Shown: positions 6,059-31,283 of the stretch, piece by piece
Layout: each line of letters opens with the position of its first letter
Position numbering within the stretch: the stretch's first letter is position 1
Source: Armatimonadota bacterium
Lineage (GTDB): Bacteria; Armatimonadota; UBA5829
DNA: 32,719 nt
Direction of reading: 5' to 3'
Assembly: GCA_026392045.1 (NCBI GenBank)
Contig: JAPLCU010000112.1
Coordinates: 1 to 32,719 of the forward strand
The notes under the pieces: generated by a model
The model's input: the letters and a program-made list of their open reading frames with translations, nothing else
Told to the model about the DNA's origin: nothing
Databases searched by the model: none
Made by a program: the position numbers and the translations under genes

Positions 6059-6082
6059 AGAATGGGCAATATGAGGTAAGGC

Positions 6083-6136
6083 GGGCTGGATTGCAAATCC
6101 AGCCCGAACCTTTGCTGGATTGCAAATCCAGCCCGA
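6083..6136. repeat. Two tandem copies of a 10+3+10 palindrome (family A)
   Basis: The first copy (6083-6105) is exact: arms GGGCTGGATT and AATCCAGCCC around GCA. The second (from 6114) repeats GCTGGATT, GCA, AATCCAGC and CCGAAC. They lie in the gap between two convergent genes. Related copies follow stop codons near 7786, 13733 and 31235, so a REP-like or terminator/RNA-end role is plausible. Confidence 0.8.
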
Positions 6137-7785: not shown

Positions 7786-7812
7786 GGGCCGGATTGCAAA
7801 TCCATCCCGAAC
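7786..7812. repeat. Family A palindrome, diverged copy
   Basis: GGGCCGGATT, GCA and AATCCATCCC, then GAAC, match the family A layout with two arm mismatches. A partial copy (GCCAGCCCGAAC) follows near 7823. The element lies just downstream of the membrane-domain stop codon at 7842. Confidence 0.65.
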
Positions 7813-13732: not shown

Positions 13733-13756
13733 CGGGGATTGCAAATCCGCCCGAAC
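13733..13756. repeat. Family A palindrome after the 3' propeller gene
   Basis: TCGGGGATT, GCA, AATCCGCCC and GAAC fit the family A pattern. The element ends 6 nt past the stop codon of the last gene of the 11-gene cluster, where a transcript end or RNA-stabilising hairpin would be expected. Confidence 0.65.
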
Positions 13757-18251: not shown

Positions 18252-19099
18252 TGTGCTCCACCAGCCTCAGATGACGTGTTGACTGGTATCAGTGTGCCGT
18301 CGGAGATCATGAAGATCTTTGAGAATCTGGCGGCATGGGCATGATTATGCGTGACCATAATTACTGTCGCGCCCTGCTCAGCGGCAAGTTCCAAAAGTAG
18401 ATCGATAATATTTCTACCAGCCTGCCAGTCAAGATTACCCGTCGGCTCATCGCACAAAAGCAGCTTCGCGCCGTTGATAAGAGCTCGGGCAATCGCCACG
18501 CGCTGCCTTTCGCCGCCGGACATCTGCGCGGGAAATGCATCGGCGCGAGGCAGAATGCCTACACGTTCAAGGAGAGCTTGGGCCTTTGCTGTGATTTGAC
18601 CGCGTCCTTCGACGGAGCTCAGGATGCTGGGCTTGTCGCTCAGGATGCTGGGCTTGTCGCTCAGGATGCTGGGCTTATCGCTCAGGATGCTGGGCTTGTC
18701 GCTCAGGATGCTGGGCTTATCGCTCAGGATGCTGGGCTTTTTGTTTGCGGAGGCAATAGTAGGAAGCAAGACATTTTCCAGCGCCGTGAGCTGTGGCAAT
18801 AGATGGTGGTCCTGGAATATGAACCCGACCTGGTTCGCGCGAAACTCGGCCAGTGACTTGCCCTCGAGCTTATTTATCTCAATATCACCGATTCGCACAG
18901 AGCCGGAGGTGGGTTTATCCAGCGAACCTGCTATGTTCAGCAGTGTGCTCTTGCCCGAGCCGGATGGGCCGACAATAGCCACAGTTTCGCCAGGCATAAC
19001 GCTCAGCGACACTCCATCGAGTATCGTAACCTCTGCCTGGGAAGTTTTATAAATCTTTGCGACCTCGGTGAATCTCAGGTCCCGCGAGGCATTGATCAT
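18248..19099 (-). CDS. LolD/MacB-like ABC transporter ATPase with a KPSIL repeat insertion
   Basis: AAGGAG 7 nt upstream of ATG 19099 sets the start. The ATG overlaps the preceding stop (ATGA). The 283-residue protein has Walker A GPSGSGKS (44-51), Q-loop Q96, signature SGGERQ (194-199), Walker B LLLCDEPT (213-220) and H-loop H251, so it should be active. Between the Q-loop and the signature lie six copies of KPSIL (121-160) joined by Ser-Asp, an expansion absent from usual LolD proteins of about 230 residues. The gene pairs with the FtsX-like permease in a 4-nt overlap, pointing to one lipoprotein or envelope transporter. The repeat is detailed separately. Confidence 0.93.
   Translation of the reverse strand: MINASRDLRFTEVAKIYKTSQAEVTILDGVSLSVMPGETVAIVGPSGSGKSTLLNIAGSLDKPTSGSVRIGDIEINKLEGKSLAEFRANQVGFIFQDHHLLPQLTALENVLLPTIASANKKPSILSDKPSILSDKPSILSDKPSILSDKPSILSDKPSILSSVEGRGQITAKAQALLERVGILPRADAFPAQMSGGERQRVAIARALINGAKLLLCDEPTGNLDWQAGRNIIDLLLELAAEQGATVIMVTHNHAHAARFSKIFMISDGTLIPVNTSSEAGGAH
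18618..18740. repeat. 21-bp tandem repeat inside the ATPase gene
   Basis: Five full 21-bp units (CTCAGGATGCTGGGCTT plus GTCG or ATCG) and one 18-bp partial unit run head to tail. On the coding strand each unit is read as SDKPSIL. The flanking block at 18608-18617 with CGACGGAG (TCGAAGGA type) links the array to the intergenic repeat at 20740-20816, which has the same period and the shared word CATCCTGAG. Units differ only at a synonymous Asp codon position, so the expansion is recent. Confidence 0.95.
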
Positions 19100-20739: not shown

Positions 20740-20816
20740 CCACTTCGCCATCCTGAGGCTCCACTTCGCCATCCTGAGGCCCCACTTCGCCATCCTGAGG
20801 CTCTCGAAGGATGAGC
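20740..20816. repeat. Three tandem 21-bp CATCCTGAG units
   Basis: CCACTTCGCCATCCTGAGG units of 21 bp repeat three times (20740-20760, 20761-20781, 20782-20802) and end in CTCTCGAAGGATG, which pairs with CATCCTGAGG-like sequence. The array fills much of the 224-nt gap between the NuoEF fusion gene and the flavoprotein gene. It has the same 21-bp period as the coding array in the ATPase gene. Confidence 0.85.
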
Positions 20817-30047: not shown

Positions 30048-30090
30048 GTTTTTATCGCGAAAGCGCGAAATGCCGAAAGGGACGAAAAGG
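30048..30090. repeat. 43-bp direct repeat, copy 1
   Basis: It is identical to 30268-30310 except for one base (GCGAAAT versus GCGAAAG). The core is ATCGCGAAAGCGCGAAA and GCCGAAAGGGACGAAAAGG. Confidence 0.85.
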
Positions 30091-30111
30091 TCTAAGAAGA
30101 TCATCGAAGAT

Positions 30112-30235
30112 CGTCGGGGAAATCCGTTCCCCGACGCACGTTTTGCGGATATCCGATCCGCTAACTCACCTACAAGGCTATATTGGCGGAATAGATTTCC
30201 GCAACACTTACGCCCTGGAACAGATTTCCAGGGCG
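30112..30235. repeat. Four palindromes with ATCCG/ATCTG-type spacers
   Basis: They are: 30112-30136, arms CGTCGGGGAA and TTCCCCGACG around ATCCG; 30145-30161, GCGGAT and ATCCGC around ATCCG; 30186-30202, GCGGAA and TTCCGC around TAGAT; 30211-30235, CGCCCTGGAA and TTCCAGGGCG around CAGAT (ATCTG on the other strand). Arms are perfectly complementary within each copy but differ between copies. Confidence 0.9.
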
Positions 30236-30267
30236 ATCCAGACGAGATATTCCAGAGCGATCCAGAG

Positions 30268-30310
30268 TTTTTATCGCGAAAGCGCGAAAGGCCGAAAGGG
30301 ACGAAAAGGG
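30268..30310. repeat. 43-bp direct repeat, copy 2
   Basis: The second copy of the repeat at 30048-30090 has one mismatch. An inverted partial copy (GGGCTTTCC, CCCTTTCGCG, TTTTCG) follows at 30339-30381. The pair could recombine to delete the palindrome block between them. Confidence 0.85.
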
Positions 30311-30338
30311 ATTTAGGAATTTCAAAATAAAAGCAATT

Positions 30339-30381
30339 TCGGGCTTTCCTCCCTTTCGCGTTTTCGTGATTAAGAGAAGAA
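30339..30381. repeat. Inverted partial copy of the GCGAAA repeat
   Basis: On the minus strand it reads TTAATCACGAAAACGCGAAA followed by GGGAGGAAAGCCCG, matching the core of the two 43-bp copies and of 20678-20719. It ends 3 nt before the stop codon of the isomerase gene. Confidence 0.6.
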
Positions 30382-30383
30382 AG

Positions 30384-31028
30384 CTACTCAAAAAGCTCCT
30401 GCTCCACCATCAGACAGATAGTGTGATAAATTGGCAGGTGATATTCCTGTACTCGGTAGGTTTCTTGCTCAGGCGCTTTAACGACTATATCGCAGAGTTT
30501 TTCAAACTCCGGGTTGCCGGAACCTGTGAAGCCAACCGTCGGAATCCCCATTACTCGGGCCACTTTCAGAGCGTTGCAGACGTTTTTCGCATTACCTGAT
30601 GTGCTCAAACCGATCAACATATCCTCGGGTTTGCCGTAAACATAAACCTGCTGAGCGTAAATCATATATGGGTCGATGTCATTCATGATGGCTGTCACAA
30701 GCGCCGTATGTCCGCTGAGCGAAATCGCCGGGACGCCACGCTGCAGTTTCTTGGAAAGAAATCCCCAATCGGCGAGCCCTGATTTGCTGAAGAGATCGGC
30801 GTGAGATTTCGGCATTTCCCGCTTTGAAAGAAAACCCTTCATCAGCTCGGCAACAATATGCTCGCTATCCGCCGCGCTCCCGCCATTTCCGCAAACAAGC
30901 GCCTTACCCCCGGCACGATACGTTCGGCAGATCAATTCAACGACCTGTGCCACAGCTTCTTTGGTATCAACAAGCTCAGGATTCCGCTCAATCAGCTCAT
31001 CCAGCAATATCAGCGCGTTTTTGTTCAA
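30384..31028 (-). CDS. GmhA-like SIS-domain phosphosugar isomerase
   Basis: GGGAG 8 nt before TTG 31028 sets the start; an in-frame TTG further up lies inside a palindrome and is unlikely. The 214-residue protein has the phosphosugar motifs VCGNGGSAADSEHIVAELM (about 46-64), SLSGHTALVTAI, and IGLSTSGNAKNV, and the family end VQEYHLPIYHTICLMVEQ. This fits D-sedoheptulose 7-phosphate isomerase (GmhA) for heptose or related sugar nucleotide synthesis. A separate family member with another phosphosugar is possible. No other heptose gene lies in the window. Its own candidate promoter lies upstream, within a palindrome block. Confidence 0.9.
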   Translation of the reverse strand: MNKNALILLDELIERNPELVDTKEAVAQVVELICRTYRAGGKALVCGNGGSAADSEHIVAELMKGFLSKREMPKSHADLFSKSGLADWGFLSKKLQRGVPAISLSGHTALVTAIMNDIDPYMIYAQQVYVYGKPEDMLIGLSTSGNAKNVCNALKVARVMGIPTVGFTGSGNPEFEKLCDIVVKAPEQETYRVQEYHLPIYHTICLMVEQELFE

Positions 31029-31068
31029 TTGAATATCTCCCAAATGCAATTTGATCGTCACTTGATCG

Positions 31069-31189
31069 TCCGGCAAATCCGTTGCCGGATGCCGTCTCGC
31101 GGATATCTGATCCGCAAAAGAACGTTTGCAAAGTATATAGTGGAACAGATTTCCACCAAAGCCACGCCCTGGAACAGATTTCCAGGGCG
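31069..31189. repeat. Second block of four palindromes with ATCCG/ATCTG-type spacers
   Basis: 31069-31089 has TCCGGCAA and TTGCCGGA around ATCCG. 31099-31115 has GCGGAT and ATCCGC around ATCTG. 31140-31156 has GTGGAA and TTCCAC around CAGAT. 31165-31189 has CGCCCTGGAA and TTCCAGGGCG around CAGAT and is identical to 30211-30235. Partial copies (CAGGGCGATC, AAGGGCGATC) follow to 31230. The block covers the 5' leader and promoter of the isomerase gene. Confidence 0.9.
31132..31159 (-). promoter_or_regulatory. Candidate promoter of the isomerase gene, containing a palindrome
   Basis: TTGGTG (31154-31159) and TATACT (31132-31137) lie 16 nt apart on the minus strand. The palindrome at 31140-31156 overlaps most of the spacer. 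The leader to TTG 31028 would be about 97 nt and contain two more hairpins. Confidence 0.4.
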
Positions 31190-31234
31190 ATCTAAAATTT
31201 CAAGGGCGATCTAAGATTTCCAGGGCGATCCCTC

Positions 31235-31283
31235 TGTTCGGGCGGATTTGTCTGTTCGGGCGGATTTGCAATCCTGCCCGCAA
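31235..31283. repeat. Two partial family A palindromes
   Basis: GTTCGGGCGGATTTG occurs twice, separated by TCT. The second is followed by CAATCCTGCCCGCAAC, giving the family A palindrome layout with one mismatch. The element ends at the stop codon of the downstream propeller gene (31286). Confidence 0.7.

Follow-up and report, generated by a model that had tools for sequence, protein, structure and literature searches.

The eight palindromes near the end of the window, by which we mean the whole stretch of 32,719 nucleotides analysed here from an Armatimonadota bacterium, are very probably REP hairpins, each block of four forming a REPIN, that is, a RAYT element reduced to its two inverted ends, with the transposase gene missing. 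RAYTs are REP-associated tyrosine transposases of the HUH-type Y1 class, and REPINs are miniature non-autonomous elements. The hairpin family, its tag, the covariation of its arms, the inverted composite and the homologous ends at RAYT genes in relatives are established in this analysis; that a RAYT moved the hairpins, and that the strand carrying the tag GAT is the one bound, is what we infer.

Direct reading confirmed the eight palindromes listed in the initial annotation, each of them perfect and with a 5-nt spacer, at 30112-30136, 30145-30161, 30186-30202 and 30211-30235 in block 1 and at 31069-31089, 31099-31115, 31140-31156 and 31165-31189 in block 2. They are not eight equal copies but two copies of one four-hairpin composite, the two blocks being homologous and about 125 bp each. 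The order in each block is outer hairpin A (+), inner C (+), inner D (-) and outer B (-), an inverted arrangement in which ATCYG is read on the plus strand in A and C and on the minus strand in D and B, with about 25-30 nt separating C from D. GAT stands at the 5' foot of both outer hairpins, so that the composite starts with GATC and ends with GATC. The spacer is ATCCG in three copies, ATCTG in four (three on the minus strand) and ATCTA in one (minus strand).

By direct reading of block 1 (30109..30238), hairpin A (30109..30139, plus strand; R1 match of 48.3 bits) consists of the GAT tag, arm CGTCGGGGAA, loop ATCCG and arm TTCCCCGACG, followed by C (30145..30161, plus strand), which reads GCGGAT ATCCG ATCCGC. 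On the minus strand, D (30186..30202) reads GCGGAA ATCTA TTCCGC, and B (30208..30238; R1 match of 47.3 bits) has the GAT tag, arm CGCCCTGGAA and loop ATCTG. In block 2 (31064..31192), hairpin A (31064..31094, plus strand; R1 match of 45.3 bits) has the GAT tag, arm CGTCCGGCAA, loop ATCCG and arm TTGCCGGATG; if its one G.T pair is allowed, the arms of the palindrome at 31069 reach 10 bp (31067-31091). Hairpin C (31099..31115, plus strand) reads GCGGAT ATCTG ATCCGC, and D (31140..31156) reads GTGGAA ATCTG TTCCAC on the minus strand, a matched change from C-G to T-A relative to block 1. Hairpin B (31162..31192, minus strand; R1 match of 47.4 bits) again has the GAT tag, arm CGCCCTGGAA and loop ATCTG. 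Composites homologous to these two REPIN-like structures are present on many contigs of the genome.

Between the two blocks lies an ORF for a SIS-domain (GmhA-like) protein (30384..31076, minus strand), which we take as a bystander outside the element. Its listed TTG start overlaps hairpin A of block 2, and the true start is therefore probably located downstream. Block 1 lies between the two copies of a 42-bp direct repeat (TTTTTATCGCGAAAGCGCGAAANGCCGAAAGGGACGAAAAGG; 30049-30090 and 30268-30309), and tandem copies of the 3' half of hairpin B plus GATC (ATTTCCAGGGCGATCTAAA, 19 bp) trail each block (31178-31230 and 30222-30266), as if partial ends had undergone repetition. The window also contains a palindrome family with the core GGATTTGCAATCC, present in five copies versus 0.12 expected (6082-6132, 7791-7803, 13736-13748 and 31262-31274), as well as a 21-bp unit (SDKPSIL) repeated six times in frame within an ABC-transporter ATPase ORF (18617-18739) and a second 21-bp array (20740-20803).

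The core GGAAATCYGTTCC, with at most one mismatch, has 176 matches in the 3.55-Mb host genome, compared to 4 for the reversed pattern. A more detailed hairpin survey covered about 1.6 Mb of this genome, fetched piecewise. In 1.58 Mb of readable sequence, 224 palindromes had perfectly paired arms of at least 8 bp around a 5-nt spacer, versus 27-38 in five resampled genomes, and the spacer was ATCYG in 105 of the 224, versus 0-2 in each of the resampled genomes. The fetched sequence holds 228 AATCYGTT sites, at 121 of which at least 8 of 10 pairs are formed; the foot bases of these 121 copies are strongly kept (G in 119, A in 117 and T in 116). A covariance model of the hairpin was built and used to search the host and other genomes of the order, and with this model at least 145 hairpins were identified in the host genome (150 candidates scored).

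The elements occur as singles, as tandem arrays (with 43-bp spacing on contig C77) and as many inverted composites, in which the distance between the outer hairpins is mostly 97-101 bp, a conserved spacing as in REPINs. In some composites, an unrelated palindrome (TCCCGATT ... AATCGGGA) stands where the inner C hairpin would be. The genome scan and the tabulation of arms, context and strand suggested in the initial annotation gave 38 distinct arm pairs among the 115 GAT-tagged hairpins in 1.6 Mb, a mostly extragenic location (of 118 elements, 92 fall outside the ORFs of a crude caller that takes 86% of the sequence as coding) and no strand bias, with 7 single hairpins oriented with the gene strand and 7 against it. 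Most clusters sit between genes of the same direction, and no mobile gene recurs among the neighbors of the elements. The features characteristic of REPs that are found here are the high copy number, the mostly extragenic location, the unpaired and conserved 5' foot motif and, in relatives, a RAYT with inverted flanks; a cognate RAYT was not found in the same genome.

A second abundant family in the host genome has the form TGTC-ATTCCGAA-CTTGA-TTCGGAAT, paired with ATCCTGAA-TCGAG-TTCAGGAT-GACA, and was recorded at 44 places (for example L188:1501 and L189:1501). With its TGTC tag, 8-bp stem starting with AT and 5-nt loop, it fits the CGTC/TGTC superfamily of REPs.

The only constant parts of the GAT-tagged hairpins are ATCYG, the adjoining AA/TT and the 5' GAT tag. 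The claim that the arms differ between copies yet match within each copy is borne out, with a covariation score of 0.493 compared to 0.137 in shuffled arms and 0.04-0.16 when the partner was slid by 1-3 columns (at most 0.160 in any of these slid controls). In the 38 arm forms, 96.8% of the cells are paired, versus 77.7% in shuffles, and both partners have changed in 60 cells, versus 14.4 in shuffles, such changes being seen in 6 of the 10 pairs. The copies come from one genome and are non-independent, and these figures therefore show pairing rather than counts of events. They support the conclusion that it is the pairing, and not the arm sequence, that is kept. Departures from pairing on the GAT strand at pairs 1-8 comprise 7 G.T and 0 A.C, and this G.T excess mildly favors folding of the GAT strand. 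We discounted the bias as strong evidence for the strand, because at pair 9 the departures are G.T only but the 5' G is invariant; once this pair is left aside the excess is modest, and at pair 10 it is reversed (2 G.T versus 5 A.C).

Among the other genomes of the order, the covariance model has 29 matches in G017, 1-6 in eight further genomes and none in nine. The relatives' hairpins keep GAT and the two-hairpin end, and differ in the loop. We had considered a family restricted to the species, as a strict pattern matched just the host among 291 genomes of the phylum, but this was rejected when the covariance model found the relatives; a scan of 84,980 genomes with the strict pattern gave three matches, all with 4-bp arms and explained by chance only.

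The initial annotation was right to advise a search for an associated transposase of the REP type (TnpA-REP), since RAYT loci in relatives are flanked by model hairpins. Matches stand in inverted orientation on both sides of four RAYT genes of one clade (G007:C3, G011:C174, G017:C137 and G015:C162), and a fifth (G002:C66) lies between a hairpin with the loop ATCTG and another with ATCCG, one of the two carrying GAT. These RAYT proteins exceed the NCBIfam cut-off for the REP-associated tyrosine transposase. None of about 20 other RAYT loci of the order, outside that clade, has a flanking pair of model matches. At least three model matches were found in each of the six genomes with a RAYT of the clade, and any match at all in 3 of the 12 genomes without one (the host genome aside), a contrast that is confounded by kinship. 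The scores at the RAYT loci are moderate (13-26 bits), and the proposed link to the relatives is drawn from these matches together with the shared architecture.

The reading of the composites as RAYT elements that lack the gene has its most direct evidence in genome G015, in which a composite of 107 bp corresponds to the left end (50 of 56 positions identical) joined to the right end (42 of 52) of the RAYT element in the same genome. The arms of the composite and of the RAYT ends differ by matched changes, a G-C pair being replaced by A-T on the left and an A-T pair by T-A on the right. With such a joined pair of RAYT ends in a relative, the blocks in the host genome are best read as REPINs.

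The host genome holds several RAYTs and RAYT fragments, none of which belongs to the relevant clade, also according to the tree; the best match scores 105 bits, versus 213-300 bits for the clade. We considered the host RAYTs on contigs C179, C107 and C65 as partners but did not adopt them as such, their readable flanks carrying other terminal hairpins of the TTCGG type. The assembly is 98% complete in 206 contigs, so that a gap is possible. The partner gene may since have been lost or be unassembled, or another RAYT may serve the hairpins. One RAYT-bearing element of the host with GTTTCGGGATTTGAGTG... ends, present in full at L180 and L181, has internally deleted copies at L183 (C42:47084), L185 (C172:2719) and L186 (C142:1212); this element seems itself to have moved, unlike the usual single-copy RAYT.

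The mechanism that we propose is that replication would expose one strand as single-stranded DNA, allowing the GAT-tagged strand to fold, and that the RAYT would then read the unpaired tag and the ATCYG loop, requiring of the stem only that it pairs well. Mutation of one arm would weaken an element, further mutation of the opposite arm would restore its function, and the restored element would be copied onward, so that the copies would come to share the tag, the loop and the loop-proximal AA/TT and to differ in their matched arms.

Arms may also come to match without selection if a mutation in one arm is transferred to the other during replication, by template switching or by hairpin-templated repair. 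Such a mechanism is established for quasi-palindromes, and the many variants and the perfect pairing of most arm pairs over 10 bp are what it would produce. Yet it leaves unexplained the constant tag, loop and AA/TT, the spacing and many copies of the composites and the relatives that flank RAYTs, and the G.T pairs that persist at pair 9 in many copies should have been removed by such repair. We therefore regard it as unlikely to be the main explanation, although it may contribute to the arm changes.

A selected pairing could also act in RNA, if the hairpins served mainly as 3' end stabilizers, terminators or processing sites. Roles of this type have been proposed by Di Nocera et al. for many REPs, G.T pairs do occur, and the majority of the clusters lie between co-directional genes. 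Against this, hairpins A/C and B/D face opposite strands within a composite and in the B hairpins the G.T pairs are on the strand of the hairpin itself, single hairpins show no preference for the gene strand, and there is no match in Rfam; a role as terminators was rejected in view of the absence of T-runs after the hairpins. A mainly RNA-based function is thus quite improbable in our view. The missing cognate RAYT could instead be taken to mean that the composites are MITEs of another transposase family that uses hairpin ends, which we find very hard to accept, as no transposase recurs beside the elements and homologous ends flank RAYTs in the relatives. The match to RAYT elements also led us to set aside a role of the integron attC type.

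The initial annotation knew of no named family with the matched-arm rule, but the published record says otherwise (PMC3733652; PMC3116915; PMC8266576). In the GTAG and CGTC superfamilies of REPs, complementary stem changes define subfamilies, and G.T pairs, inverted heterodimers and spacers with two stem-loops have been described (PMC3733652). Compensatory changes have been reported in REPINs (PMC3116915), group-3 REP transposases read the loop, accept varied stem sequences provided that the stem is paired and lose activity upon mismatch (PMC8266576), and some RAYT subclasses are flanked by atypical structures (PMC6006769). The matched arm change is thus the ordinary and already known REP rule, as a RAYT may read tag and loop and require of the stem only its pairing, and the GAT tag and the orphan state are the new details.

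Like the REPINs of Pseudomonas fluorescens SBW25 (Bertels and Rainey 2011, PMC3116915), the composites are inverted REP doublets with fixed spacing, many extragenic copies, compensatory changes and a link to RAYTs; unlike them, they have two hairpins per end, a GAT tag and no partner RAYT in the host genome. They share with the GTAG superfamily, including the SMAG repeats of Stenotrophomonas (Di Nocera 2013, PMC3733652), the unpaired tag at one foot, the inverted heterodimers, the copies flanking RAYTs, the 6-13-bp stem and complementary changes between subfamilies, but the tag is GAT rather than the GTAG/GTGG carried by known RAYT-linked REPs, and the loop is ATCYG, of 5 nt. In the CGTC superfamily, the unpaired tag is CGTC, the stem starts with AT and the tail is CCA-like, whereas here CGTC is found inside the paired arm, and in some copies only; in comparison with this superfamily, especially the CGTC-3 dimers of Agrobacterium, relatives of the GAT family do flank RAYTs (PMC3733652). 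A loop that is read and a paired stem of relaxed sequence are also features of the group-3 REPtrons Sm and Mb (Corneloup 2021, PMC8266576), which are GTAG-tagged and biochemically tested, whereas the GAT family is known from its sequence and the rule is deduced. No description of a GAT-tagged REP family was found in the text, as distinct from the figures, of these papers. As its tag matches neither GTAG nor CGTC, the family appears to be undescribed as such, although its kind is known.

A wider proposal, which we put forward tentatively and rate at somewhat less than an even chance, is that GAT takes the place of GTAG as the foot tag read by a RAYT clade of this order, at two-hairpin ends, making this a third class of REP tags, and also that the about 150 host hairpins without a detectable partner were either orphaned by the loss of their RAYT or are driven by another RAYT of the host. 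The GAT family leaves the general picture unchanged and widens the RAYT-linked REPs past the GTAG tag. The host's REPINs appear to be orphans, whereas relatives still hold the enzyme, a situation that bears on the dependence of REPINs on the RAYT, and the 38 natural arm pairs with a fixed tag and loop already provide an experiment on the features that a REP transposase recognizes.
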